Positions 9,718 through 23,354 of a stretch of 42,784 bases of DNA are shown piece by piece. Numbering within the stretch: position 1 is the first letter of the stretch; the number at the start of each line of letters is the position of its first letter. Origin of the DNA: a virus; the IMG/VR virus record IMGVR_UViG_3300021957_000089, positions 1-42,784 of that record, one strand, 5' to 3'. The position numbers and the translations under genes are program-made. The notes beneath the pieces were generated by a model. It was given only the letters and a program-made list of their open reading frames with translations, made no database searches and was not told the origin of the DNA.

Positions 9718-10410
9718 ATGATTAACAGCGTTAGAAATACAGTATTATCTATCATAGACAAGGATAATAGTGGGTATATCTCACCTAGCGAATTTAATCT
9801 ATTTGCAAAATCAGCACAACTAGAAATCTATCAGGAGTATTTTGACAACTATAGAAAGGCTGTGTTGGCTAAGAATAGTAGAAGAGGGTCTAGAGGAGCA
9901 ACTGATGAGGTAAAAGACATATCTCATAAGCTCGATATATTTACAGTAAAACAATCTCTAAGTGCAGCTGAAAACAATCAGTTGACACTTCCAAGCGATC
10001 TATATATGATTAACACTGTTTTATGTGAAAATTCTATTGTAGAGGAAGTTGACAAGACTGAGTTTTACTTTTTGAATCAAGCTAATCTAGCGTCTCCATC
10101 AGAAACATATAAAATTTACACAAGGTTTGGAGAGAACATTGAAGTTTCTCCATACGATGCTTACGTCGACTTGGTCTATTACAGGACCCCATTGACGCCT
10201 AAATGGACATATTTAACTAATCCAAATAGTGATCCAATTTACAATCCTACTGCATCGGATTTTCAAGACTTTGAGCTACACCCAGAAGAGGAAACTCAAT
10301 TAATAGTTAAAATATTAAGGTACGCTGGTGTTACAATAAGAGCTGAAGATGTTGTATCTGTTGCAGAGGGACAAGACAAAACGGAGTACGAAAAAGAAAA
10401 TCTTACATAA
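9718..10410 (+). CDS. Putative neck/head-tail connector protein with EF-hand-like loop
   Basis: A 230-residue protein. Its N-terminus contains a full EF-hand calcium-binding loop pattern, DKDNSGYISPSE, at residues 14-25, with Asp, Asp, Ser, Gly, Ile and Glu at the canonical positions 1, 3, 5, 6, 8 and 12. It is followed by the helix FNLFAKSAQLEIYQEYFDNY. In Bacteroidota podoviruses, proteins with a similar N-terminus sit in the ring or connector region below the portal. The rest is mixed beta, with conserved-looking LTLPSDLY and LVYYRTP strands. It begins a new transcription unit and is followed 3 bases later by another connector-like gene. Calcium binding is an inference from the loop only. 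Confidence 0.6.
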   Translation: MINSVRNTVLSIIDKDNSGYISPSEFNLFAKSAQLEIYQEYFDNYRKAVLAKNSRRGSRGATDEVKDISHKLDIFTVKQSLSAAENNQLTLPSDLYMINTVLCENSIVEEVDKTEFYFLNQANLASPSETYKIYTRFGENIEVSPYDAYVDLVYYRTPLTPKWTYLTNPNSDPIYNPTASDFQDFELHPEEETQLIVKILRYAGVTIRAEDVVSVAEGQDKTEYEKENLT

Positions 10411-10413
10411 TAA

Positions 10414-11268
10414 ATGAGCTCACAACAATATTACGATGACGTAGCGAAACATGGTGAATACCAATATGTTTTACTAAAAGATATAGTGAACAACTTCATG
10501 CTTATGAATGTTGGTGACGATAAGATTATTAATGACGTTCAACGTTACCAAGTTGTGCATCATGCTAAGCGAGCTTTGCAAGAGTTAAACTATAGTGCGT
10601 TAAAGGAAGAGTCTTTTCTTGAGGTAGAATTGTCGGAAACTCTTAGGGTTACAATGCCTCAGGATTTTGTGCAGTTAACAAAAGTCTCTTGGGTTGATGA
10701 TAGTGGTAGGTTACATCCTATGACTCAGAACAAATACATGAGTCAAGGGGCGAAGGGCTATCTTCAAGACGAAAACGGAAACTTTATATTTAACGAGGCT
10801 GGAGAGCTACAGGAGGCGGATTCATTGGCAGACCAGAGATCTTATGTAAGTAGGCAAGATTCTATTGATTATGACACTTTAGAGGCAGAACATACAGGGG
10901 GTAGGTTTGGAATGGACACTGCTAGCGCAAACAAGAACGGAACATACATTGTAGAAAAAAAATCTGGATACATAAGGTTCAGTTCACATTTACAAGATGG
11001 CGACTTAGTTGTCATACAATACATATCAGACGGTATGTCCGTAAATGACGACTCAATATTACGAGTTCATAAACTTGCTGAAGATTATATTTATAGTTAT
11101 ATTCAAGCACAAGTTTTGGATCGAAAATATGGCGTTCAAGAGTACGTTGTTAGAAGATCAAAAAAGGATGCTAGCGCAAAACTAAGAAACGCTAAAATTA
11201 GATTGATGAATATTAATTTAGACGACCTTGTGCAAAACCTAAAGGGCAGAAACAAGTGGATTAAATAA
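10414..11268 (+). CDS. Putative neck/ring structural protein
   Basis: A 284-residue protein between a connector-like gene and the large tail gene. Residues 20-55 are helical (VVHHAKRALQELNYSALKE), followed by VTMPQDFVQLTKVSWVDDSG, a pattern typical of adaptor or ring proteins in crAss-like and related podoviruses. The C-terminal part is helical and basic (RRSKKDASAKLRNAKIRLMN). The ATG follows the previous stop after 3 bases, and its stop overlaps the next ATG (TAATG). A role in joining portal to tail is inferred from position and pattern. Confidence 0.6.
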   Translation: MSSQQYYDDVAKHGEYQYVLLKDIVNNFMLMNVGDDKIINDVQRYQVVHHAKRALQELNYSALKEESFLEVELSETLRVTMPQDFVQLTKVSWVDDSGRLHPMTQNKYMSQGAKGYLQDENGNFIFNEAGELQEADSLADQRSYVSRQDSIDYDTLEAEHTGGRFGMDTASANKNGTYIVEKKSGYIRFSSHLQDGDLVVIQYISDGMSVNDDSILRVHKLAEDYIYSYIQAQVLDRKYGVQEYVVRRSKKDASAKLRNAKIRLMNINLDDLVQNLKGRNKWIK

Positions 11269-14200
11269 TGAAGTTAAAAAACGTATTTCTTTCTGGTCGC
11301 ATGAATAAAGATGCGGATGAACGCTTGTTAAAAAATGACGAGTATGTTCATGCTGAAAACGCTGTGGTATCTAGCATAATAGATGCAGACACAGGTGTGT
11401 TAAAAAATGCAAAATCTAATAGACTTGCTGGTCAAGAATTAGTATTTGCAGGAAGCAATCCTGAAACAATAGGGTCTGTGGCTGACGATGCAAACAATAA
11501 AATATATTGGTTTGTTGTAACCACCTCTGGCTCTTATATATGTGAATACGATAATGTTTTGGGGTCAAGTAGTTTTGTTTTAGAGGACACTAGAATAGAT
11601 GATCAAAACGTTTTAAACTTTCAGAGATACAACAAAATACATAGTGCAAACATCTTAAATGACACTGACAACGGAAGAGACTTTTTATTCTGGACAGACG
11701 GATTTAATCCTCCAAGAAAAATAAATATACAAAGAGCAAAAGACTATTCTGCTAATGGTTTCACAGAAGATGATATAAATGTCATTGTAAAGCCACCAAT
11801 AGAGCAGCCTGAGATAGAACTTACAAATACAGATTCAGATGGAGACAACTATATGACCAACAAGTTCATACAGTTTTCTTACAGATATAAGTATCTTGAT
11901 GGGGAGATTAGTGCTTTAAGCCCTTTTAGCGAATATGCTTTTGATGCTCAGGAGTTTTTCTATAATTATGAAGAGGCTACTAATGAGTCTATGAAAAACC
12001 AATACAATCAGGCTAATGTAACTTTTGATACAGGGGGATCTAACGTTGTTTCGATAGACTTGTGTTTTAGGGAATCGGAATCCAGCAATATATATTTGAT
12101 TGAAAGTTTTGGTAAGAAAAAATTAAAACTACAAGATAATTCCACTCACACTTTCTCTTTTAAAAACAGTAAGATATACACTGTTTTGCCTAGCGATGAA
12201 AACAAGAGACTATATGATGCAGTGCCTTTGACCGCAGAAACACAGGAGCTCATAGGAAATAGACTAATATACGCAAACTACACAGAAAATTATGACATGG
12301 TTGATGTCAATAATGAAGAGATAAACTTTGACTTCACCCTAAACCATTTGTCGTTTTATTTAAACTTTGGTACACCTTCAAGGACAATAAAGAGTAATAG
12401 AAGTTATGAAGCAGGTATTGTGTATCTTGATGATTACGGCAGGATGTCTACTGTTATGACCTGTGCTAAAAATGCAGTTAAAATACCTGTAAGCGCATCA
12501 AACACAAGAAATAGGCTGCAGCTTACCATAAACAATATTGCGCCAAAATGGTCTAAATATTACAGGTTATTTATAAAAGAGAATCAGACTCAATACGACA
12601 CCATTACACCAGTTATATTTCATTCTGACAATGAGTTTTCTTGGGTAAAAGTTGAAAAAGCTGATATAGATAAGTTTAAGGAAGGTGAATTTTTGATTGT
12701 AAAATCAGATACATCAGGAATAAAGAACAACTACATAGAAACAAAAGTGTTGGAGTTTGGTCAAAAAGAACGTAACTTTTTAGACACAGCAGGAACTGCA
12801 TCTCCAGGTGAGATTCTACAAGAAGAAGGTACTTACATAAAAATCAAACCGACTGGATTTAGCATTAGCGATGCTGGATACTTTAAGAAAAACAGTAGAG
12901 ACGAAGATAACTCTAGAAAGAAAACAGGACAGGACGATCCTAGAATCACAAACGAGCAAAGCGTTAGGTACTTTGACGGCCCTTATTATTATGAGGTTGC
13001 TTCTGGAGGACTAAATGATATGAATATCACAGGGACTCCAAGCGCTTCAACAGACCAACGTTTTGAGATAGAGGTAGACAGCACAGGTAATACTGATACA
13101 TTTAAGTGGAGAGTTAGTGATGAAACTGGCTTAGGAAATTGGAATGATAACAATTCAATGAGTCAAAGTCATAGTCTTCAGGATGGACTAGGCGTTTCAT
13201 TTTCTGCCTCTACTGGTCATAGCTTGGGAGAAAGATGGACTGTAATAGCCAGAAACCCAATAACAAACTATGATGAGACAAAGTTTTCACAAGTGATTTT
13301 AGTGGGTCCTGAAGGGAACGAAGAAGTTGGACCAGGAAGCACACTAAGATTGATGTATAATGAAAGAAGGTCTGATTATAGCAACACATATTCGTCTAGT
13401 ATATTATCAAGCAGATATTATCCAAACATAGAAGAGTTTTGGCATGAACAGATGAAAGACGAAATGTCTATAGACGTTCCAGAATCCACTATTCGTTGGA
13501 GAAGAGGAGTTGTAACAGATACTGATACAGATAGAGGAAGAACTTTTGCTGTAACAAACAACAGCTCTGATCCTCTTTGCATGATCATAAACTCACAGAA
13601 CTCACAAGACTCTGGATTAGCAGATCTTTTAGGATCAGGTGACCATACGTTTTTTGGTGGCTTGTTTGATGGTTTGTCTGCAAATGTTTTTAATGAAGCT
13701 AGCTGGAACATGGTTTTAAAAGACAGAGGAGACTCTATGCTTGTTTTTGAAACAAAACCAGACGTTACCAATGATCAGATATTTTATGAAATTGGAGAAA
13801 CATACACCATATCAGAACAAGGATATCATTTAGGAAGTAATGGAGACAGAAACCAAACGGAAGGTAGGGCTGCTTTAGTTACTCTGGATTTCTTTAACGC
13901 TTTTACCTGGGGTAATGCTATTGAAAGTTATAAGTACAAAGACTCTTTCAATGCCCCTGAACTTTTACATAACGCAAGACCTCTTACTAGTTATGAGGGT
14001 TATAGAAAAAACAAAAGAATAGCCTCTCTCACTTACGGTGGTCGATATGAGCAGACTACAAATTATAACGGATTGAATGAATTCAATCTGTCGTTATCTA
14101 ATTACAGAGATGTAGACGACAAGTACGGATCTATTGAAAAAATATCGTCAAGAGATACTGATCTTATCGTTTTTCAAGAAAACAAAGTTAGTAAGATATT

Positions 14201-15344
14201 GTTTGAAAAATCTGTTTTGTATAATGCAGATGGATCAGGAAATGTCGGATCGACAGAAGATGTTCTTGGCACACAAGTTCCGTTTGTTGGAGAATATGGT
14301 ATATCAAAGACACCATCTTCTTTTGCTAAATGGTATAATGACATATTTTTCGTTGACAGCAAGAGAGGATCTGTTTTAAAGCTCAACTCCAACGGATTAG
14401 AAGAAGTATCTCAATATGGCATGAAAGACTGGTTTAGACAGAACGTTGGGGACACCGCCAACTCACAGGTTGTAGGGGGATATGATCCTTACAATGACCT
14501 GTATGTTATAAATGTAAAAGACCCTGTAATTGAATGGAGAGAAGACGACTATTTTTGCGAAAAAGGAAATGTGTCTTGGTCTGTAAGTAAGTTTTATTGT
14601 GAACAAGCAGTAGTTCCTATTCCTACACCTGCACCAACTACACCTGCTCCTACACCAGCACCTACACCTGCTCCAACAGCAGCAGCTCCTAATCCAACAC
14701 CTGCTCCGACATCACCACCACCTGTAGCACCATCACCTACTAACGCACCAGTGCCTGTTGCTCCTTCACCAACAAACCCACCGCCAGTATGTACAGTTAA
14801 TTGTAGTACATACAGTTGTGGTACTCATGGATCAAATTGGTTTAACACAAGCTTTGATTGTAACACAGGAGCTATTAATGTTTCTGCATACTTTAGCGGT
14901 CAAACATTAGTTTCTTATAGTCCAACCAGTGCTACACCTAATAGTGGAACTGCTAATGTTAGTGCATCTTTCTATTTATCTGACCCATATTGGACTAACG
15001 CAGGAACAACTATAACTTGTACTGTAGGAGTAAGTACAGCATGTGCTACACCAGCACCTACAACTCCTGCGCCTACAACCCCTGCACCAACACCTGCGCC
15101 TACACCTGCTCCTACTGCCACACCAGCACCTACACCAGCACCCACGGCAGCAGCTTGTTATTTCTTTGATATTGGAAATGACGGAGACCCACTTGATGAT
15201 GACTCCTTTACTTATATAAGGTGTAACGGAACTACAACTTCTGGAAGCGTTCCGTTTGGAGACCTTATTCAGGTGTGTGGAAGATCATTTAGTCACATAG
15301 GTGCATCGTTGACAGTAACAAACACACAGACACCTTGTAGTTAA
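11268..15344 (+). CDS. Large tail protein with proline-rich linkers and C-terminal adhesin-like modules
   Basis: A 1358-residue protein. The N-terminus (FLSGRMNKDADERLLKNDEY) matches the start of large tail hub/stabilisation proteins of Bacteroidota podoviruses as I remember them. The first ~1090 residues are a beta-rich body, with many Tyr/Asn/Asp and a YDPYNDLYVINVKD segment near 1075. Then come a 57-residue Pro-rich tract (1117-1173, 26 prolines, Thr-Pro-Ala-Pro units), a Cys/Gly module (about 1174-1260), a second Pro tract (1261-1296) and a final four-Cys module (Cys1297, 1319, 1337, 1357). That last module recurs in the protein at 16294. The C-terminal half thus looks like exposed host-binding modules on flexible, possibly glycosylated linkers. 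The usual tail domain that I would expect next is found in a separate gene at 22605. Confidence 0.7.
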   Translation: MKLKNVFLSGRMNKDADERLLKNDEYVHAENAVVSSIIDADTGVLKNAKSNRLAGQELVFAGSNPETIGSVADDANNKIYWFVVTTSGSYICEYDNVLGSSSFVLEDTRIDDQNVLNFQRYNKIHSANILNDTDNGRDFLFWTDGFNPPRKINIQRAKDYSANGFTEDDINVIVKPPIEQPEIELTNTDSDGDNYMTNKFIQFSYRYKYLDGEISALSPFSEYAFDAQEFFYNYEEATNESMKNQYNQANVTFDTGGSNVVSIDLCFRESESSNIYLIESFGKKKLKLQDNSTHTFSFKNSKIYTVLPSDENKRLYDAVPLTAETQELIGNRLIYANYTENYDMVDVNNEEINFDFTLNHLSFYLNFGTPSRTIKSNRSYEAGIVYLDDYGRMSTVMTCAKNAVKIPVSASNTRNRLQLTINNIAPKWSKYYRLFIKENQTQYDTITPVIFHSDNEFSWVKVEKADIDKFKEGEFLIVKSDTSGIKNNYIETKVLEFGQKERNFLDTAGTASPGEILQEEGTYIKIKPTGFSISDAGYFKKNSRDEDNSRKKTGQDDPRITNEQSVRYFDGPYYYEVASGGLNDMNITGTPSASTDQRFEIEVDSTGNTDTFKWRVSDETGLGNWNDNNSMSQSHSLQDGLGVSFSASTGHSLGERWTVIARNPITNYDETKFSQVILVGPEGNEEVGPGSTLRLMYNERRSDYSNTYSSSILSSRYYPNIEEFWHEQMKDEMSIDVPESTIRWRRGVVTDTDTDRGRTFAVTNNSSDPLCMIINSQNSQDSGLADLLGSGDHTFFGGLFDGLSANVFNEASWNMVLKDRGDSMLVFETKPDVTNDQIFYEIGETYTISEQGYHLGSNGDRNQTEGRAALVTLDFFNAFTWGNAIESYKYKDSFNAPELLHNARPLTSYEGYRKNKRIASLTYGGRYEQTTNYNGLNEFNLSLSNYRDVDDKYGSIEKISSRDTDLIVFQENKVSKILFEKSVLYNADGSGNVGSTEDVLGTQVPFVGEYGISKTPSSFAKWYNDIFFVDSKRGSVLKLNSNGLEEVSQYGMKDWFRQNVGDTANSQVVGGYDPYNDLYVINVKDPVIEWREDDYFCEKGNVSWSVSKFYCEQAVVPIPTPAPTTPAPTPAPTPAPTAAAPNPTPAPTSPPPVAPSPTNAPVPVAPSPTNPPPVCTVNCSTYSCGTHGSNWFNTSFDCNTGAINVSAYFSGQTLVSYSPTSATPNSGTANVSASFYLSDPYWTNAGTTITCTVGVSTACATPAPTTPAPTTPAPTPAPTPAPTATPAPTPAPTAAACYFFDIGNDGDPLDDDSFTYIRCNGTTTSGSVPFGDLIQVCGRSFSHIGASLTVTNTQTPCS
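14616..14786 (+). repeat. Thr-Pro-Ala-Pro coding repeat, tail protein tract 1
   Basis: This stretch encodes 57 residues, of which 26 are Pro and most of the rest Thr, Ala, Val or Ser, in the units PTPAP, PAPT and SPT. Synonymous codons are mixed, so the protein pattern appears to be maintained by selection and not only by recent slippage. Confidence 0.85.
15048..15155 (+). repeat. Thr-Pro-Ala-Pro coding repeat, tail protein tract 2
   Basis: This 36-residue Thr/Pro/Ala tract separates two cysteine-containing modules at the end of the large tail protein. It uses the same dipeptide units (TP, AP) as tract 1 and the tracts in the two adhesin genes. Confidence 0.85.
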
Positions 15345-15351
15345 ATAGTAA

Positions 15352-16269
15352 ATGAAATATATATCAGCACAGCCAGAAAACCATTACTTTTCTTGGCAAC
15401 TAGACGTCATGCTTTTTTCATTCCAAAAAGTTGGGATAGAAATGAAAGATGTTCATATATTAGCATCTATTTTACCTAATCAACAGAAACAATGGTTTTC
15501 GTATTTAGAAAAAAAATACCCTGGTATATCTATACACAGGTATAAAGATGGCAGACCAGATAAGTCCTACATACCCAGCATAAAACATTATTTATTATTT
15601 AGATACTATGAAGAGTTTCCTGAAACAAGAGATTATTCCGTTTTTTTTCATGATTCTGATATCGTTTTTACTAAAAATCCTAGTTTAGATCATTTGTGTA
15701 ATGATGATGTTTGGTATCTAAGCGACACTAAAAGCTACTTAGGATATAATTATATTATGTCTAAGGGAAAGGATACATTAGATACTATGCTCATTACGAC
15801 AGGTATGGATGAAGAGACTGTTAAAAAAAACGAAGATAATTCTGGAGGAGCGCAATACATCATTAAAAATGTAGATGCAAAGTTTTGGTACGACTGTTAC
15901 AGTATGGGAGTTAACCTTTACAAAATGACAAGCGTATATGAAAAGGCCAAGAAAAAAAACGACCCTAATTATCATATGCTACAGGTTTGGACCGCTGAAA
16001 TGTGGGCTACATTATGGATGGCTTGGATGAAGGGCATAGAAACAAGAATACATCCAGATATGGACTTTTGTTGGGCAACAGATCCTATAAAAAGATGGGA
16101 TGATTGCTCCATATATCACAACGCTGGTGTTACTTCCTCACACACAGGAATGTTTTACAAGGGAGCTTATATCCACAACGATCCATTTGCTACAGATTTA
16201 AAGCTAGATGAAAAAAAATGCTCATATAAATATTATAAGTTACTAAAAGAAGCGAGTCTCAAAAATTAG
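15352..16269 (+). CDS. GT-A-like glycosyltransferase, possibly hydroxyproline-glycosyltransferase-like
   Basis: A 305-residue soluble protein. It starts MKYISAQPENHYFSWQLDVM, has a conserved-looking YIPSIKHYLLFRYY segment and a DxD-type motif, FFHDSDIVF (Asp101-Ser-Asp103). Near the C-terminus is IYHNAGV...FYKGAY, a layout typical of metal-dependent GT-A enzymes that use a nucleotide sugar. The Tyr-x-x-Trp-Gln element near the start and the DSD followed by Asn-Pro (109-110) recall plant hydroxyproline O-arabinosyltransferases and peptidyl-serine galactosyltransferases, but this is a visual resemblance. It lies 7 bases after the large tail gene and directly before a proline-rich adhesin and a prolyl hydroxylase. 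The protein substrate is therefore plausibly the phage's own tail. No signal peptide is seen, so it acts in the cytoplasm. Confidence 0.6.
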   Translation: MKYISAQPENHYFSWQLDVMLFSFQKVGIEMKDVHILASILPNQQKQWFSYLEKKYPGISIHRYKDGRPDKSYIPSIKHYLLFRYYEEFPETRDYSVFFHDSDIVFTKNPSLDHLCNDDVWYLSDTKSYLGYNYIMSKGKDTLDTMLITTGMDEETVKKNEDNSGGAQYIIKNVDAKFWYDCYSMGVNLYKMTSVYEKAKKKNDPNYHMLQVWTAEMWATLWMAWMKGIETRIHPDMDFCWATDPIKRWDDCSIYHNAGVTSSHTGMFYKGAYIHNDPFATDLKLDEKKCSYKYYKLLKEASLKN

Positions 16270-16277
16270 TAACTTTG
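16270..16277 (+). promoter_or_regulatory. Candidate -7 promoter element (TAACTTTG) before adhesin 1
   Basis: TAACTTTG fits TAnnTTTG and starts right after the stop of the glycosyltransferase gene, ending 16 bases before the ATG at 16294. It is followed by TGTAAAATT, similar to the other late elements. No -33 TTG is present. Confidence 0.5.
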
Positions 16278-16293
16278 TGTAAAATTATTTTAG

Positions 16294-17262
16294 ATGGCTA
16301 ATACTGGTATAGTTGTAGTTACAGAGCTAAAGAAGCTAGTTGATGGAGTCGCTACTTTTGACACAAAACCAAACTTAAAAGGTGACAAGGATTACGTCCC
16401 ACCTTTTCAAGATACAGGTAAATGTGTTATAAATGCTAACCCAGTTACTCCTGCTCCTACACCAGCCCCTACAACAACACCAGCTCCAGTGTTTTCATAT
16501 CCATCATTCTCTATTTCAGATCAAAGTTACACGGATGGAACTCAAGCTTGTGCGCATTCAGGAGGTTATACGTCTGCTTACCATAATGGATCAGGGAGTT
16601 ATCCAACTGAAGGTGACTCTGTGTATCAAGATAATCAAGGTTCGTCTAGTTATGCCGATGGGAATTATTTGCTTTTGAGCGGTTCAGGAATTAATATATA
16701 TAATGGTACTGTAACTTCAAAATTTGCTTGTAGTGCACCAACACCAGCACCTACACCAGCACCTACACCAGCACCTACAACTGCTCCTGCTCCTGTAGCG
16801 CCTCAAGAATGCTACAATTATATATTAACAGGACCTTCTGGATCTGGAGCTGTTACATTTACATACACGGAGTGTGGAGGATCGTCAACAAGTGTAAGCT
16901 TACCAACTGGACAAACCCAGACGGTGTGTGCAGTAGTTAATACTGTCACCATGAGTCCTAGTACAGGAAATATTGAAGCAAGTTCATCATGTGGAACTCC
17001 TAACCCTACACCAGCACCTACACCTGCTCCAACAGTTTCATATGCTTCTTGGGCATTACAACCGTGCGCAGGAGGTGACGGACAAAATAATCAGTATCTT
17101 GCATGGGATAGCTCAGGTCAAGTCGTGACAGGAGATATTGTGTTAGCTAGTGATGCTGCGTGTTACACTTTATTAGAACCATCCAATATATCTCCAACTC
17201 TTTCTTGGGTTACAGAATACAATGACTGTTCTGGGTGCGTAAATAGAGACGGAGGATTTTAA
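16294..17262 (+). CDS. Modular adhesin-like protein 1 with three Pro-rich linkers
   Basis: A 322-residue protein. Residues 1-48 form a small domain (LKKLVDGVATFDTKPN, DKDYVPPF, Cys44) that is clearly shared with the protein at 21461. Then follow a Pro tract (about 50-66), a Gly/Ser/Tyr module, a second Pro tract (about 148-171), a four-Cys module (Cys173, 194, 212, 233) that matches the end of the large tail protein, a third Pro tract (about 234-247), and a C-terminal module with PCAGGDG and YNDCSGC. No signal peptide is seen. The modular build and the proximity to tail genes suggest a virion-surface adhesin or tail spike tip. The Pro tracts are candidate substrates for the neighbouring hydroxylase and glycosyltransferases. 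Confidence 0.65.
   Translation: MANTGIVVVTELKKLVDGVATFDTKPNLKGDKDYVPPFQDTGKCVINANPVTPAPTPAPTTTPAPVFSYPSFSISDQSYTDGTQACAHSGGYTSAYHNGSGSYPTEGDSVYQDNQGSSSYADGNYLLLSGSGINIYNGTVTSKFACSAPTPAPTPAPTPAPTTAPAPVAPQECYNYILTGPSGSGAVTFTYTECGGSSTSVSLPTGQTQTVCAVVNTVTMSPSTGNIEASSSCGTPNPTPAPTPAPTVSYASWALQPCAGGDGQNNQYLAWDSSGQVVTGDIVLASDAACYTLLEPSNISPTLSWVTEYNDCSGCVNRDGGF
16741..16776 (+). repeat. Three perfect tandem copies of a 12-bp unit
   Basis: ACACCAGCACCT occurs three times in a row without a mismatch, encoding Thr-Pro-Ala-Pro x3 in adhesin 1. Nearly the same unit occurs at 17008-17020 and around 15129 in the tail gene. Confidence 0.9.
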
Positions 17263-17287
17263 ATGAATATAATTAAATTTAAATATA

Positions 17288-18517
17288 ATGATAACAGAAA
17301 TAGAGAACTTTCTAACGAAAGAAGAATGTGATAATATTATATTAGGCATTGAAGCAAACAATGTAAGATCTTCTGTAGCAGGATCTGGATCACAAGCATC
17401 AACAACAGACTCATCTAGAACTTCATATACATCCAACCTTGATGTTAATGTTAATTTGAATGTTGAAGTAAAAGGGCGTATAGCTTCTTTTTTGCAACAA
17501 GACCTTGGTAAAGGAGAGCCTATACAGGGTCAAAAATATGAATCTGGTCAATTCTTTAGACAGCATCACGATTATTTTACAGGTGATTCTTTCACCAATC
17601 ATTGTCTTAGCTCTGGAAACAGAACATACACAATGATGATTTATCTGAATGAAGATTTCGAAGGAGGCGGAACGAACTTTCCAAATTTAGACAAAACAGT
17701 AGAACCTAAAACAGGTAAGGCTGTTTTTTGGGAAAACACAAAGAACGGTGTGCCTCAACATGACACTCTTCATGAAGGAACAGATGTTGTGTCTGGGACA
17801 AAATACATAATTACATCTTGGTGGAGAGAGAACGAATGGAATGGATCTGAAGATGTAAGACTAGCGACAGAGCATCATAACAGGAAAACAAAGTCAAATG
17901 ATTTGAGAAAGGTTTTTACTAATCACGACAACATACCTAAGTTTGATGAATCAGGTTTTAAGGTTGTAAAGGTCCCAGAAGATGCCTGGGCTTTAATACA
18001 GGAAATGTATGAAGACGTTAAGGCTTCTGCAAGAGAAGAGATTTTTGAAGGTAAGGATAGCATAATACCAGGTGTAGGTAAGACAAGTGAGCTTTTAGAT
18101 GTGGGTCAAGTATATGAAAAAAGAGACAGACTACATCAAATGTTGCTTCCTTTACACGAAGAGTTTGCTAAAACTAAACTAGATCCGTCTTTTATATATG
18201 GAATTAGATCTTATTTGAGAGGAGCTGGTTTAACTCCACACAAAGATAGAATAGAAACTCACCATATATCTTCTATAATAATCGTAGATAAAGACATGAA
18301 GTGCGGTTGCAGGGACAAAGAGTTTGCTGATGATTGGCCTTTGGACATACAATCTCATAATGGAGCTTGGAATCAGGTACATGCAGATGTTGGTGAAATG
18401 ATTTTGTACGAGTCTGCAGCTTGTGAGCACGGAAGAAATTATCTGTTTGCTGGAACTTACTTCAGAAACATGTTTGTTCATTATAAGCTTAACGACTGGA
18501 AGTATGTCGCAGAATAA
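17288..18517 (+). CDS. Prolyl 4-hydroxylase-like protein with two 2-oxoglutarate/Fe(II) oxygenase domains
   Basis: A 409-residue protein. The first domain (about 1-180) has the full prolyl 4-hydroxylase pattern: YESGQFFRQHHDYF with His93 and Asp95, RTYTMMIYLNEDFEGGGTNF, PKTGKAVFW, then His162 and Lys172 in LHEGTDVVSGTKYIITSWW. His-x-Asp...His binds Fe(II), and Lys binds the 2-oxoglutarate C5 carboxylate. The second domain (about 225-405) has another set: LTPHKDR (His318, Asp320), THHISSIIIVD, WPLDI, GEMILYESA and EHGR (His381), the pattern of a second 2OG oxygenase. Such enzymes hydroxylate protein-bound proline with O2 and 2-oxoglutarate. Proline-rich Thr-Pro-Ala-Pro tracts in the neighbouring proteins are obvious candidate substrates. 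Its last 14 bases overlap the next gene, which encodes glycosyltransferases. Confidence 0.85.
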   Translation: MITEIENFLTKEECDNIILGIEANNVRSSVAGSGSQASTTDSSRTSYTSNLDVNVNLNVEVKGRIASFLQQDLGKGEPIQGQKYESGQFFRQHHDYFTGDSFTNHCLSSGNRTYTMMIYLNEDFEGGGTNFPNLDKTVEPKTGKAVFWENTKNGVPQHDTLHEGTDVVSGTKYIITSWWRENEWNGSEDVRLATEHHNRKTKSNDLRKVFTNHDNIPKFDESGFKVVKVPEDAWALIQEMYEDVKASAREEIFEGKDSIIPGVGKTSELLDVGQVYEKRDRLHQMLLPLHEEFAKTKLDPSFIYGIRSYLRGAGLTPHKDRIETHHISSIIIVDKDMKCGCRDKEFADDWPLDIQSHNGAWNQVHADVGEMILYESAACEHGRNYLFAGTYFRNMFVHYKLNDWKYVAE

Positions 18518-20438
18518 GTATATATCTTTTGAGCCTTGGTGGGCAGGATACTCTAATGTTAGAATGTCTTTCGAGATAGCTATTGCTATATCAGAGATAA
18601 CAGGAAGAACATTAATAATTCCACCAAAAGTGTATTTCAATGGTATTAACGATTGGAATGACACCAAATCATACCTAGATATATTTAGTGTTTGGAGAAA
18701 AGACACGTTCTTAGAAACATTTAACGCTGTTGATTATCATGATGTAGAAGAATATGCTTCTCTTAACAGTGAGATAGGATATTTTAATGGTATAGATAAA
18801 ATAGCAGAGATAAAGACCTTCTCATCTAAATACGAAACACTACATCCGCTACCTCCTCCAGACAAGGATTTTGTAGTATATAAAGATATCGAAGATCAGA
18901 AAGACTTTGAAATGTTTGCTTCAGGCAGAAAGCCTTTCTCCGTAGACTCTGAAGCTAAGTTTATTCACTTTCCAAGAAATCTATTCGGTCATTTTTATTA
19001 TATAGTGTATGGATCTTCTCCAAACAAAAGAAACTATATAAAAAATAAGATTATTAGAGGTATTCGTTTTAATGAAAATCTTTATAGGTATGCAAACGAA
19101 GCTAAGAAGAAGATGGGAAGATACAACGCACTTCACATAAGGAGAGGTGATTTCTTATCGGACAGACCTAATATGGAGTATGACTTGAGCGTTATAAATG
19201 AATTTCTACCAGATTACTTTTATGACAAACCAGTTTATATAGCAACAGATGAAAAAGATAAAAGCTTTTTTGACTCATTAAACATACAAAACAAACATTT
19301 CTTTTCAGATCTGTATGATATAACAGACCCTCTTAAAGAAATAGCAATAGACATTATAACCTGCAGTAATGCAGAAGAGTTTTTAGGCAGTAGACTAAGC
19401 ACATTTAGCGACTACATAAATGTAAATAGAGCTTCAATAAATCAAAGCGTCAGGATATTAGAATACAATAATCATGATTCTGTTGATTCTGCTTACGATA
19501 TTTTACCTTGGAGCAAAGACAATCAATCTTCATGGCATGACTTATCTGAATACTATTGGACACCTGAAAAAGATGATAGAAAGATTTTCATAAATATAGC
19601 TTCATATCGAGATTTAGATTTAATAAGAACGATAGATGACGCAAGAGAAAAATCTGCATTTCCAGATAGACTTGTATTTGGAGTGATGCTTCAGGATGAA
19701 GAGTGGATGTTGAATAGGCTAAGGCTCATGAATGATGTGAAAATAATATATTGTCATTATAAAGAAGCAAAAGGTGTTGGTTACGCCAGGAACAGAATAA
19801 ACAACGAACTATATAATGATGAGGAAATATTCTTACAAGTTGACAGTCATTGTAGATTTTACAGGAATTGGGATATAGGTATATCACAACAAATAGATGA
19901 ATCGCCAGATAACAGCTTTCTAACTGGCTTTCCGCCAGATGTCAGGAATTACATGGAATACAATAACTACATACAAAACGATAGTCTAAATTGCAATAAA
20001 ATATTAAGCTTCAAAGAGAATGCTTTTCCTTTTTTCAATAGCAGAGGAACGACACCAAGGGGAGAGGGATACTGTAAAACTTTTCATGTATCAGGTTCTA
20101 ATGTTTTTGGTAGGGGAGAAATCGTAGATGTAATCAAGTATGATGACAATAATGATCTTTTGATAAATCCGTTTCTGGATCAAGAAATATACTCTTGTTT
20201 AGCCTATGTGGCAGGATATGATTTTTATGTTCCAAAGTTTGCAAACGTCTGGCATAACTACAACGACAACACAGAGAGAGGAGATAAGAAGCTAAGACCC
20301 TTGTGGCATGAAGATAATCAATTGGATAATTACATAAAAAATCCATTGCCTTTATTCAAGTCTAGGGAAACAAAAAGAACTGTCGATCAGTGGATCGAAG
20401 AAATAGAAAGTGAAATAAAAATAAATAAAAATGAGTAA
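18504..20438 (+). CDS. Two-domain glycosyltransferase: O-fucosyltransferase-like plus GT60-like (hydroxyproline GlcNAc-transferase family)
   Basis: A 644-residue protein from the ATG at 18504; an in-frame ATG at 18423 lies deep in the previous gene and is less likely. The N-terminal domain (1-320) has WAGYSNVRMSFEIAIAIS, HIRRGDF at 211-217 and a C-terminal SNAEEFLGSRLSTFSDYI. These are the hallmarks of GDP-fucose O-fucosyltransferases, where the Arg residues bind GDP-sugar. The C-terminal domain (358-605) has IFINIASYRD, KGVGYARN, EIFLQVDSHCRF (metal-binding DSH, 447-449), HVSGSNVFGRGEI and NVWHNY. This order of motifs belongs to family GT60, which includes the Dictyostelium enzyme adding GlcNAc to hydroxyproline of Skp1. 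It lies next to a prolyl hydroxylase and a GDP-sugar epimerase. Cytoplasmic, with no membrane segment. Confidence 0.8.
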   Translation: MSQNKYISFEPWWAGYSNVRMSFEIAIAISEITGRTLIIPPKVYFNGINDWNDTKSYLDIFSVWRKDTFLETFNAVDYHDVEEYASLNSEIGYFNGIDKIAEIKTFSSKYETLHPLPPPDKDFVVYKDIEDQKDFEMFASGRKPFSVDSEAKFIHFPRNLFGHFYYIVYGSSPNKRNYIKNKIIRGIRFNENLYRYANEAKKKMGRYNALHIRRGDFLSDRPNMEYDLSVINEFLPDYFYDKPVYIATDEKDKSFFDSLNIQNKHFFSDLYDITDPLKEIAIDIITCSNAEEFLGSRLSTFSDYINVNRASINQSVRILEYNNHDSVDSAYDILPWSKDNQSSWHDLSEYYWTPEKDDRKIFINIASYRDLDLIRTIDDAREKSAFPDRLVFGVMLQDEEWMLNRLRLMNDVKIIYCHYKEAKGVGYARNRINNELYNDEEIFLQVDSHCRFYRNWDIGISQQIDESPDNSFLTGFPPDVRNYMEYNNYIQNDSLNCNKILSFKENAFPFFNSRGTTPRGEGYCKTFHVSGSNVFGRGEIVDVIKYDDNNDLLINPFLDQEIYSCLAYVAGYDFYVPKFANVWHNYNDNTERGDKKLRPLWHEDNQLDNYIKNPLPLFKSRETKRTVDQWIEEIESEIKINKNE

Positions 20439-21432
20439 AAAAAAGGTACTAGTATTAGGAGGAGGTGGCTTCGTTGGTGGTCATTTAGCTAAAAGATTAA
20501 AGGAAGAGGGTTGCTTCGTAAGGGTTGCAGACATAAAAAAAGAGCCTTCATTTCATTCTAAAGAGGAAATATGTGATGAATATGCTTCTTTAGATTTAAG
20601 AAACCCATCATTTGTTTCTTTGTGTATGCATGCACCAGACCAAAAGTCGTTAGATGATAGTGAAAATTCATTTGATGAGGTATACAATTTGGCAGCAGAT
20701 ATGGGTGGTGCAGGATACATATTCTCTGGTGATAACGACTTGCAGGTAATGTCTAATTCATCAAAGATAAATCTTAATGTAGTTGATAGCGCTGTATCTT
20801 TTAATGTAAAAAAAATATTTTTTTCTAGCTCAGCTTGCGTTTACCCAGAGCACAATCAACTAGATCCAAACAATCCAATTACAGAGGAGAGTAGTGCCTA
20901 CCCTGCAAACCCTGATTCTGAATATGGATGGGAAAAGCTTTTTTCAGAAAGATTATATCTGTCTGCAAATAGAAACGAAAACTTAGACGTTAGAGTTGCT
21001 AGATATCACAATGTATACGGACCTAATTGTTCTTGGAATGACGGCAAGGAAAAAGCACCTGCAGCCATGTGTAGGAAAGTGGCTGAAAACAACAAGGTTG
21101 TTGAGGTTTGGGGTGACGGAAAACAAACCAGATCCTTTTTATACATAGACGATGCTATTGACGCTACAATCGCTTTTATGAGGCAAGATAAAAGTTTAGG
21201 TCCTATTAATATAGGTTCAGAGCAAATGGTAACTATAAACGGACTGTTGAATACAGTTATGAGTGTTGCCGATAAAAAATTAAAAATAAAACATATAGAA
21301 GGTCCTCTTGGAGTCAGAGGAAGGTCTTCTGATAATAGGTTGATTTACGAGCTGATAGGATGGAAACCTAAGTACAAACTAAAGGACGGAATCAAATTAA
21401 CTTACGATTGGATAAAAAAGCAGGTTGGTTAA
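20431..21432 (+). CDS. GDP-mannose 3,5-epimerase-like nucleotide-sugar epimerase
   Basis: A 333-residue short-chain epimerase. It has an N-terminal Rossmann motif (GGGGFVGGH, 10-18), NLAADMGGAGYIFSG (86-100), SSSACVYPE with Cys136, Tyr165-x-x-x-Lys169, and GKEKAPAAMCRK with Lys208. It also has WGDGKQTRSFLYIDD and GPLGVRGRSSDN. This set, including the Cys/Lys acid-base pair, is characteristic of GDP-mannose 3,5-epimerase (EC 5.1.3.18), which makes GDP-L-galactose (and GDP-L-gulose) from GDP-D-mannose. Similarity to the plant enzyme is apparent over nearly the whole length. It overlaps the preceding glycosyltransferase by 8 bases. L-galactose is the 6-hydroxy form of L-fucose, so the product is a credible donor for the neighbouring O-fucosyltransferase-like domain. 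A GDP-sugar 4,6-modifying enzyme is a less likely alternative. Confidence 0.8.
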   Translation: MSKKKVLVLGGGGFVGGHLAKRLKEEGCFVRVADIKKEPSFHSKEEICDEYASLDLRNPSFVSLCMHAPDQKSLDDSENSFDEVYNLAADMGGAGYIFSGDNDLQVMSNSSKINLNVVDSAVSFNVKKIFFSSSACVYPEHNQLDPNNPITEESSAYPANPDSEYGWEKLFSERLYLSANRNENLDVRVARYHNVYGPNCSWNDGKEKAPAAMCRKVAENNKVVEVWGDGKQTRSFLYIDDAIDATIAFMRQDKSLGPINIGSEQMVTINGLLNTVMSVADKKLKIKHIEGPLGVRGRSSDNRLIYELIGWKPKYKLKDGIKLTYDWIKKQVG

Positions 21433-21437
21433 TTTAC

Positions 21438-21445
21438 TATCTTTG
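21438..21445 (+). promoter_or_regulatory. Candidate -7 promoter element (TATCTTTG) before adhesin 2
   Basis: TATCTTTG fits TAnnTTTG and lies in the 28-base gap after the epimerase, ending 15 bases before the ATG at 21461. It is followed by TAGAAAATT, as at the other late elements. No TTG at -33. Confidence 0.5.
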
Positions 21446-21460
21446 TAGAAAATTCAGTAA

Positions 21461-22603
21461 ATGGCAGAGACTACTGGACTCAAGACTGTTACAAGGTTAA
21501 GAAAGTATATTAACGGAAAGGCTACGACAGAGACGAAGGCTAATCAGGCTTCTGACTCTGACTACATTGCCCCATATTCTGACACAACATCTTGTCCTTT
21601 ATATGTGTTTGACGTTCCTACTCCTGCTCCCACAGTAGCCCCTACACCTGTGCCAGTAGGTACAACGCCTACACCTGCGCCATCACCAACACCAGCACCT
21701 GCACCCACAGTTACACAGATTCCTATACCAGAGGCAACAAATTGTAGTCCTTGTATTACACAGGATGTGGCTAACTCTGAGTGTGCTGTTTACAATGTTT
21801 TTAATCATGATCCAGTAAAAACTGCTTATTTTCAGATTACAGACTGCTCTACTGGGCAGAAAGTTTCACAAGTAATGTACCCAGATACAGACAGAGAACT
21901 TGAGTCATTGACTGAGCCCTTCCTTAATAGTGGAGCTCAAATTGGATACGATTTTGTAAAGTGGGCTGATGGGTTTTCTGACATTGATTTAAATAAAAAT
22001 CATTATGAGGCTGTAAACTGCTCAAACAATTTAGAGTATAGAATTGTAAGAACAAAAAGACAGTTGAACGAAGGTCAAGTTGTAAAAACAGAAAACAGCT
22101 CTTGCTGTTGGCAAATAAAATCACAAGTATCGCCTCAACAAGCACATAATGCCCTTATTAACGCAACCTATCCAATATACAATGAGTGTATAGATTGTTG
22201 TTCAACGCCTTCTGTCATACCAAGTACATCTGCCGTTATAACAGGAACAACAACAACATCTATAGATTGCTCTGGATCTTATAATAGGGAGGTGATATTC
22301 GTTGTAGAAACAGAAGGAGAGGTTGATGTAGAAATATCTGTAAATGTTGCAACAGGCCAATACGTAAGATCTACAGGAAGATTACTTCTAAACAATGAAG
22401 GTATCTACAGTCAGTATGCATCTTTTCCAACAAACTTATACGCATACCCACCATATGTTGTGAATGGTGTTGAGCAGGCTGGTCCAACCGTAGAGACAAA
22501 AAGAATGACACTACCTGAAGGTACTTACAAACTACAACTAGAACCCCTAGACTGTGCTTCAGGTGCTTTCGGAACATCCACATTAACCGTATCAGTAGTA
22601 TAA
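21461..22603 (+). CDS. Modular adhesin-like protein 2 with Pro-rich linker
   Basis: A 380-residue protein. Residues 1-45 (LRKYINGKATTETKAN, DSDYIAPY, Cys45) match the N-terminal domain of adhesin 1 in length, motif and Cys position. A Pro/Thr/Ala tract follows (about 52-90), then Cys-rich modules including NCSPC, SSCCWQIKSQVS and YNECIDCC. The last resembles the YNDCSGC end of adhesin 1. The C-terminal ~120 residues form a Gly/Thr/Val beta domain. The shared N-domain suggests both adhesins dock to the same virion site. It begins its own transcription unit and is followed one base later by a detached tail-domain gene. Host-receptor binding is inferred from the architecture. Confidence 0.65.
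   Translation: MAETTGLKTVTRLRKYINGKATTETKANQASDSDYIAPYSDTTSCPLYVFDVPTPAPTVAPTPVPVGTTPTPAPSPTPAPAPTVTQIPIPEATNCSPCITQDVANSECAVYNVFNHDPVKTAYFQITDCSTGQKVSQVMYPDTDRELESLTEPFLNSGAQIGYDFVKWADGFSDIDLNKNHYEAVNCSNNLEYRIVRTKRQLNEGQVVKTENSSCCWQIKSQVSPQQAHNALINATYPIYNECIDCCSTPSVIPSTSAVITGTTTTSIDCSGSYNREVIFVVETEGEVDVEISVNVATGQYVRSTGRLLLNNEGIYSQYASFPTNLYAYPPYVVNGVEQAGPTVETKRMTLPEGTYKLQLEPLDCASGAFGTSTLTVSVV
21616..21729 (+). repeat. Thr-Pro-Ala-Pro coding repeat in adhesin 2
   Basis: This stretch encodes about 38 residues alternating Pro with Thr, Ala, Val or Ser (PTPAPT, PVPV, PSPTPAPAPT). It is the same kind of linker as in the tail protein and adhesin 1, but with fewer perfect DNA-level repeats. Confidence 0.8.
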
Positions 22604-22604
22604 T

Positions 22605-23354
22605 ATGGCAAAAACAGTAACATATAAAGATAGCGCCAAGGGTTGGACATCGTTCTATTCTTATGAACCAGAATGGATTGACAACCTTAATGATGAGTAT
22701 TTTACTTTCAAAAATGGACAAATATATGCGCACCATAAAGACGATAATGACAGAAACACTTTCTACGGTCAGCAGTATAATACTAAAGTAGAATTTGTGT
22801 CTAATGAAGGACCTTCTGAAGTTAAAATGTTTAGAGCTATAAAAACAGAAGGAAGCAGCAAAAACTGGGACTTTATTGTTGATAGTGATATTGAAAGCGG
22901 ACACATAGACAAATCCTCTTTTGTTGAAAGGGAAAACATGTACTACGGTTATATTAGAAATAATAATGACGAAGTGGATACAAAGAAACTTACATTTCAG
23001 GGTATTGGGATATGTAGCAGTGTATCTGCTGACGCTATAACTTTCTCTGAACTTCCTGACTCAACCATTTCTGTTGAGGACAACGTATACAAAGCAGTCG
23101 TTGATGAAGATACATCGGAAATAGGAAACATGACGTTGGTAGGTGTTGTTGATGTTATAAATCAAAACAGTATTGATATTAAAGATATATCTTCAATGCC
23201 TAACCCAGGAGAATTTATTATGTATGGCAAAAATCAAACATCGGAATCAGAAGGAGTAAGAGGTTATTACGCTAAAGTAACAATGACCAACTCCAGTACA
23301 GATCCTGTTGAAATTTATGCCGTTAACTCTGAGGTTACAAAGAGTAACCTTTAA
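22605..23354 (+). CDS. Detached C-terminal tail-protein domain
   Basis: A 249-residue protein. The first ~120 residues (KGWTSFYSYEPEWIDNLN, EYFTFKNGQIYAHH, NTFYGQQYNTKV, NEGPSEVKMF, ENMYYGYIRNN) form a pattern I know from the C-terminal region of large tail proteins of Bacteroidota podoviruses. There it normally follows a beta-body ending much like the Tyr-Asp-Pro-Tyr-Asn-Asp segment of the protein at 11268. Here it is a separate gene with its own ATG, placed 7 kb downstream after the adhesin/glycosylation cassette. The C-terminal half is a beta-rich domain. It probably still assembles with the large tail protein. Confidence 0.6.
   Translation: MAKTVTYKDSAKGWTSFYSYEPEWIDNLNDEYFTFKNGQIYAHHKDDNDRNTFYGQQYNTKVEFVSNEGPSEVKMFRAIKTEGSSKNWDFIVDSDIESGHIDKSSFVERENMYYGYIRNNNDEVDTKKLTFQGIGICSSVSADAITFSELPDSTISVEDNVYKAVVDEDTSEIGNMTLVGVVDVINQNSIDIKDISSMPNPGEFIMYGKNQTSESEGVRGYYAKVTMTNSSTDPVEIYAVNSEVTKSNL

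Follow-up and report, generated by a model that had tools for sequence, protein, structure and literature searches.

What does a phage do with a prolyl 4-hydroxylase inside its tail operon? This question is raised by the IMG/VR virus record IMGVR_UViG_3300021957_000089, whose complete stretch of 42,784 nucleotides is referred to below as the window. The 42.8-kb record is a marine, Crassvirales-like phage; genes for the terminase, the portal, structural proteins of the ring type, the muzzle (PF25731) and the C-terminal domain of the muzzle (PF25729) follow each other in order. A 7.3-kb block of genes splits the muzzle gene (11268-15344) from the gene of the muzzle C-terminal domain (22605-23354). 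According to the original prediction, which was made from the sequence alone, the block serves to hydroxylate proline (Pro) in the tail linkers of the phage and then to glycosylate the resulting hydroxyproline (Hyp). Comparison of genes and folds, of linkage and of joint exchange supports hydroxylation and glycosylation of the phage's own tail tracts. We consider it likely that the block is a phage-encoded post-translational unit, which hydroxylates and glycosylates its own tail tip with the glycans most likely on Hyp. The unit modifying the tail-tip stalks in this succession appears to be swappable, to employ chemistry known from plants and protists, and to occur in many relatives as well.

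Proline-rich tracts and enzymes of the block

In the block, the order of genes is GT-A-like glycosyltransferase, Pro-rich protein 1, hydroxylase, a fusion of an O-fucosyltransferase (O-FucT) with a GT60 domain, epimerase, and Pro-rich protein 2. All genes are on the + strand; the features are as follows.

11268..15344, +, crAss-like muzzle (tail-tip) protein, 1358 aa, proposed substrate, two Pro tracts near the C-terminus (PF25731, 1.6e-13; phrog_14478, 1e-251)
14613..14786, +, muzzle Pro tract 1 (VPIPTPAPTTPAPTPAP...), 26 Pro in 58 residues
15048..15146, +, muzzle Pro tract 2 (TPAPTTPAPTTPAP...), 14 Pro in 33 residues
15352..16269, +, GT-A-like glycosyltransferase with DSD motif, 305 aa (phrog_4417, 7e-80; PF03407, 0.009, below cut-off)
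16294..17262, +, Pro-rich accessory tail protein 1, 322 aa, proposed substrate, three Thr-Pro-Ala-Pro (TPAP) tracts (16447-16488, 16735-16803, 16996-17031)
17288..18517, +, two-domain prolyl 4-hydroxylase, N-half canonical, C-half a second 2-oxoglutarate (2OG)-Fe(II) oxygenase (PF13640, 9e-17)
18504..20438, +, fusion of O-FucT and, behind it, GT60 (Skp1-type GlcNAc transferase), 644 aa (PF10250, 8.6e-15; PF11397, 1.3e-25)
20431..21432, +, GDP-mannose-3,5-epimerase-like enzyme (2c59, E 4e-86)
21461..22603, +, Pro-rich accessory tail protein 2, 380 aa, proposed substrate, tract at 21617-21730
22605..23354, +, muzzle C-terminal-domain protein (PF25729, 9e-12)

Three genes with TPAP tracts had been predicted, and these three (muzzle, 16294-17262 and 21461-22603) are the sole open reading frames (ORFs) of the window which reach at least 8 Pro in 30 residues. 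The peak values are 14, 10 and 13, respectively, and the tracts contain a total of 77 Pro. At the window's Pro content of 3.5%, only 1e-7 stretches with at least 13 Pro in 30 are expected by chance. The tracts consist of 39% Pro and 22% Thr, the residue preceding Pro is Ala (44%) or Thr (31%) in most cases, and they show the repeated XP (non-contiguous) or PP (contiguous) pattern by which plant-type Hyp-rich glycoprotein sequences are recognized. The two accessory proteins have an N-terminal segment of about 45 aa in common.

The prolyl 4-hydroxylase (P4H) seen earlier by motif is present at 17288-18517; its second 2OG domain had been missed. Comparison of the N-half with solved prolyl 4-hydroxylases of the PDB gave E-values of 3e-34 (B. 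anthracis type) and 7e-27 (Chlamydomonas). The catalytic residues H93, D95, H162 and K172, which constitute the HxD...H iron triad and the 2OG-binding lysine, show no variation among 39 diverse copies. The N-half is a predicted peptidyl-proline hydroxylase of the P4H family. The C-half has no match in Pfam; its residues H318, D320, H381 and R383 are kept in 38-39 of the 39 copies, and the predicted structure (pLDDT 94) is a double-stranded beta-helix with HxD...H. In a Foldseek search, the best hits by E-value were the P4H of P. putida, the Dictyostelium prolyl hydroxylase and human PHD2 with TM scores of 0.52-0.59, whereas lysine halogenases and hydroxylases gave higher TM scores (0.61-0.68). 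Four PHROG families, namely phrog_2954, phrog_3531 (ferrochelatase), phrog_2297 and phrog_274 (DNA endonuclease), all match the 2OG oxygenase domains of this gene, and their labels look like misannotations.

The GT60-like and O-FucT-like domains, which had also been predicted, both exceed the curated Pfam cut-offs (55.6 bits versus 31.5 for PF10250; 91.1 bits versus 21 for PF11397) and reside in one fused protein. This protein more likely starts at ATG 18504 than at GTG 18423, because the resulting length of 644 aa agrees with its relatives. The GDP-sugar epimerase proved to be of the GDP-mannose-3,5-epimerase type: It scores 292 bits against 2c59 and 90 bits (1e-24) against GDP-fucose synthase, and the active site (SSAC, YxxxK, the lysine of EKAP and the arginine of GVRGR) is retained. 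It shares 52-58% identity with the epimerases of other FUT loci. Enzymes of this kind are again found with O-FucT genes in three relatives (L027, L028, L061) and in cyanophage S-SCSM1, in which a homologue of the hydroxylase C-half lies directly behind the O-FucT gene. The epimerase type and this recurrence suggest that the O-FucT-like domain uses GDP-L-galactose or GDP-L-gulose; the epimerase is probably the candidate enzyme making this donor.

The further GT-A-like enzyme of the original prediction is found at 15352-16269. Its predicted model is of low confidence (pLDDT 57); homologues were found in 74 phage records, the majority from phages of Gram-positive hosts, and many of these phages do not contain the hydroxylase. 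The gene is probably accessory and not specific to the Hyp system. An assignment to the plant hydroxyproline O-arabinosyltransferases (HPAT, PF23452) was not supported: The gene does not reach the curated cut-off, and the hhalign probability is 32%. The DSD-motif family phrog_4417 is present in many phages of Lactobacillus, Enterococcus, Staphylococcus and Lactococcus, and some members adjoin the major tail protein, which makes the family a candidate tail glycosyltransferase.

From these data we infer reactions, acceptor residue, sugars and effect as follows. The two-domain hydroxylase would act in the host cytosol, prior to assembly, and convert Pro to Hyp in TPAP/XP tracts carried by the muzzle and by both accessory proteins. 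Then, the GT60 and O-FucT domains would build short glycans on tract residues, most likely on Hyp, and the O-FucT domain would probably receive its GDP-L-galactose (or L-gulose) from the epimerase. Where relatives have enzymes of the HPAT or PF04488 type or further GT60 enzymes, these would play the glycan-building role. The outcome would be stiff, glycan-coated stalks holding the tail-tip domains. Judged from the sequences, it is highly probable that hydroxylase and transferases act on the tail tracts, and it is likely, to a lesser degree, that Hyp is the main sugar acceptor.

Linkage and joint exchange in relatives

In order to follow the system beyond the window, 80 two-domain hydroxylase homologues from IMG/VR, labelled with L-numbers, were compared. 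They form 50 clusters at 95% and 27 clusters at 70% identity. Adjacency was defined as a Pro-rich ORF within two ORFs of the hydroxylase, and the expectation was taken from the other ORFs in the same loci. Adjacency was observed in 41 of the 50 clusters (22.5 expected) and, at 70% identity, in 19 of the 27 (10.4 expected). As a control, crAss-like genomes were gathered by means of an upstream structural protein, ignoring the hydroxylase. With both collections combined, the muzzle region reaches 14 or more Pro in 30 residues in all 34 hydroxylase-bearing genomes, whereas all 33 genomes without hydroxylase peak at 9 or less; presence and absence thus match in 67 of 67 genomes. The co-occurrence of the gene types in phages, a check named in the original prediction, is borne out by these numbers. 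In many relatives, the muzzle C-terminal-domain protein is itself fused to a Pro-rich tract.

Hydroxylase, tract and transferase also occur together on other backbones (L012/L022/L026, L018 and L078/L087). Siphovirus L026 encodes in a row the tape measure, a Pro-rich tail protein, the hydroxylase and an HPAT-like transferase; L078 and L087 possess fusions of HPAT-like, O-FucT and GT60 domains, and the one of L078 adjoins tail-fibre genes. The gene behind the hydroxylase is variable: It encodes GT60, O-FucT, a PF04488-type enzyme, a member of a 276-aa family (GT276), or a radical-SAM protein plus GT60. Dehydratase, DegT aminotransferase and acetyltransferase (sugar-nucleotide enzymes) as well as carbamoyltransferases are further genes of these loci. 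PF23452 (HPAT/GT95) matches 8 of 17 GT276 proteins (best 4e-8) and, in 4 of 5 cases, the N-terminal fusion domain (best 1e-6); matches of 26 bits in L014, 43-45 in L319 and 28 in L077 (with neighbours) are above the cut-off of 23.9 bits, most others are below. GT276 and this fusion domain are related to each other (hhalign E 9e-8), and the architecture HPAT-like+O-FucT+GT60+GT60 is seen among the relatives. The window itself contains GT60 and no HPAT; the HPAT family had not been part of the original prediction. With GT60 and HPAT homologues, two separate eukaryotic families which glycosylate Hyp are located beside P4H and Pro tracts.

The exchange of modules can best be tracked by comparing L054 with L083. 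Their upstream DNA is 96% identical over 7.9 kb, and several structural proteins are identical. From the end of the muzzle to the muzzle C-domain the two diverge: The tract reads PPTPPTPP in one and TPVPAAPTPTP in the other, the hydroxylases are 73% identical, and the transferase is of the PF04488 type in one and the HPAT-like GT276 in the other. The accessory protein keeps its N-terminal part, and its C-terminal 63 residues are almost identical. L051/L062 and L056/L084 show the same joint change of tract, hydroxylase and transferase in outline. Over all loci, the median fraction of Pro preceded by Pro is 33% with PF04488-type transferases and 4% with GT276, GT60 or FUT. On the tree of structural (backbone) proteins, tract grammar and transferase type each change five times, and all 32 genomes are concordant. 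On the tree of hydroxylases, 5 of 6 independent pairs agree and none disagrees (sign test, p ~0.06). Joint exchange and matching grammar are best explained by a transferase acting on the tract. We propose tentatively, and with slightly less than even confidence, that prokaryotic viruses and some hosts possess true Hyp-O-glycosylation with interchangeable modules, in which grammar (XP versus PP) and transferase type are matched and swapped together. Phages would thereby vary the glycan coat of the tail-tip stalk, leaving the tip domain untouched.

In nine relatives (L040, L042-L045, L052, L080, L081 and L084), a radical-SAM/SPASM protein is located between hydroxylase and GT60; a further peptide or sugar modification added by this protein is possible. 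Bacterial contigs were found as well. Positions 1557-9878 of L319, a contig of the Gammaproteobacteria bacterium CSMAG_1741 metagenome-assembled genome (MAG), encode an epimerase, a two-domain hydroxylase, an O-FucT+HPAT fusion and a GT60 protein; a 247-aa Pro-rich protein with an apparent twin-arginine (Tat-like) leader is also present. This set may represent the system in a bacterial form, in which the Pro-rich protein would be modified in the cytosol and then exported. Moreover, contigs L314, L320, L325 and L326 from Colwellia, a Pirellula MAG and alphaproteobacterial MAGs have a two-domain hydroxylase near proteins with 14-16 Pro in 30.

Competing explanations and further features

Several observations weigh against glycosylated Hyp as the purpose of the block. 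The match in 67 of 67 genomes corresponds to two origins only on the tree, which makes it a strong pattern resulting from few independent events, and the test of joint swaps is based on five to six changes. Among 50 viral loci with strong TPAP tracts, 48 lack a two-domain hydroxylase; tracts therefore do not need the enzyme, and the Pro tract was discarded as a predictor of the hydroxylase. Conversely, hydroxylase and HPAT-type transferase occur without any tract in L014, whose whole 52-kb contig was checked, and no tract was found in 15.9 kb of L031; we keep both as exceptions. The crAss-like phages L140 and L150 have the GT-A-like gene without hydroxylase or tract, which speaks against membership of this gene. 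A review on chloroviruses cites an unpublished analysis that found no hydroxyproline in particles of PBCV-1 (PMC7019647, ref. 162).

Homologous hydroxylase or GT60 genes occurring regularly in phages without Pro-rich proteins had been named as a refutation. This situation was encountered only with single-domain phage 2OG oxygenases and, among the two-domain contigs, in a minority that includes many short ones. The contigs of L015-L017 begin at or near the ORF which is located just behind the Pro-rich genes in L077, so that the absence of a tract may reflect the contig end. The single-domain phage enzymes were rejected as members of the system, as 33-35 kb of HTVC027P, Sen-NF and S-RS29 contain no Pro tract.

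The best of the alternatives, which we nevertheless regard as unlikely, is that both modifications take place on the tail tracts with the sugars on Thr/Ser, while the role of Hyp is limited to stiffening the polyproline-II stalk or guiding the transferases. The tracts of the window are rich in Thr (see above), and O-FucT enzymes classically modify Ser/Thr. GT60 includes Ser/Thr transferases, some of which act on Thr (PMC8724618), and HPAT/GT95 is related to the Ser galactosyltransferase family GT96 (PMC8012813); due to these relatives of GT60- and GT95-like enzymes, the acceptor could be Thr. In contrast, HPAT-family transferases adjoin the hydroxylase, and the transferase type changes together with hydroxylase and Pro spacing. 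Some tracts are poor in Ser/Thr: L013 has 26% Val, 12% Thr and 4% Ser, and the tract of L026 (11% Thr, 1% Ser) contains a run of 26 residues without Ser or Thr.

It is improbable that the hydroxylase is an auxiliary enzyme modifying a host protein, comparable to the Pseudomonas P4H acting on EF-Tu, with transferases altering the cell surface and tracts adjacent by coincidence. The fold of the C-half is nearest to just this EF-Tu P4H of P. putida, and single-domain phage 2OG oxygenases are encoded far from any Pro tract (L187-L189); however, adjacency in most loci, the complete match in the crAss-like genomes and the exchange of the hydroxylase together with tract and transferase within the tail operon speak against this explanation. 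Least probable of all is a cassette hitch-hiking in a hypervariable tail slot, whose tracts and enzymes travel by linkage without mutual action: Variability of the slot that separates the muzzle from its C-domain and the finding of only two origins in crAss-like phages would fit this, but the set recurs on the other backbones listed above and in the bacterial MAG L319, its catalytic residues are conserved, and tract grammar agrees with transferase type.

With respect to expression, the block genes starting at 15352, 16294, 17288, 20431, 21461 and 22605 are preceded by A/T-rich leaders in which no clear Shine-Dalgarno sequence is seen, as would suit a Bacteroidota host. Scans for promoters and terminators gave results at chance level, and near-identical DNA was not found among sequenced phages. 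In the ring-type structural protein at 9718-10410, as in L092, an EF-hand-like motif close to the N-terminus (E 4e-4, below cut-off) is possibly a calcium site in the tail.

Significance and comparison with known systems

Prolyl 4-hydroxylase is reported to be one of the commoner auxiliary genes in marine viruses; how viruses use it "remains cryptic" according to a survey of the Baltic Sea (PMC9301287). For the two-domain subfamily, there is now a concrete and testable candidate substrate, which is the phage's own tail tip. To our knowledge, Hyp-O-glycosylation is established in eukaryotes only; if our reading is true, it would extend to phages and perhaps bacteria, and compact soluble enzymes would be at hand for producing Hyp-glycoproteins in E. 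coli. The findings also suggest that glycan coats of tail stalks evolve through module exchange. In agreement with the original prediction, a search of open-access papers on phage hydroxylases, hydroxyproline and transferases found no phage described with such a system.

Related viral systems resemble the block in parts. For mycobacteriophages, we know of no hydroxylase or Pro tract described in this context; the likeness is a phage-encoded glycosylation of virion proteins, here of capsid and tail tube (as cited in PMC12619734). Mimivirus hydroxylates and then glycosylates its own protein by means of L230 (collagen lysyl hydroxylase/glucosyltransferase) and R699 (PMC9546862). The differences are the modified lysine, the collagen triplets, the giant eukaryotic virus and the enzyme families. 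The chlorovirus PBCV-1 also encodes a P4H; in this case the virus is eukaryotic, and we know of no linked transferases. The PBCV-1 enzyme was reported to be active on viral peptide substrates (Eriksson 1999, as cited in PMC9301287 and PMC7019647).

Parallels to the Skp1 pathway and to plants had been drawn from the beginning. The protist Skp1 pathway (PhyA, Gnt1 of GT60, PgtA) shares with the phage system a cytosolic P4H followed by GT60 and multi-domain transferase fusions (PMC8724618). It differs in modifying one Hyp on a ubiquitin-ligase subunit and in its role in O2 sensing, whereas the phage substrate would be a repeat tract in a virion protein. As neither GT74 (PgtA is GT2/GT74) nor Skp1 is among the Pfam matches of the block, there is no complete Skp1 set, and the likeness is one of chemistry and not of a shared pathway. 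A closer parallel, on account of tract sequences and HPAT homologues, is offered by the plant and algal Hyp-rich glycoproteins (P4H with HPAT/GT95 and Hyp-galactosyltransferases): P4H and XP/PP grammars are alike, and HPAT homologues are present in relatives. In contrast to the plant system, the phage system is soluble, cytosolic, phage-encoded and devoid of GT31, and the window is without HPAT. In plants, contiguous and non-contiguous Hyp carry different glycans (PMC8012813). This rule, by which Hyp spacing decides on the glycan, would be the counterpart of the match between grammar and transferase in phages, although the phages assign families to grammars in a manner different from plants.

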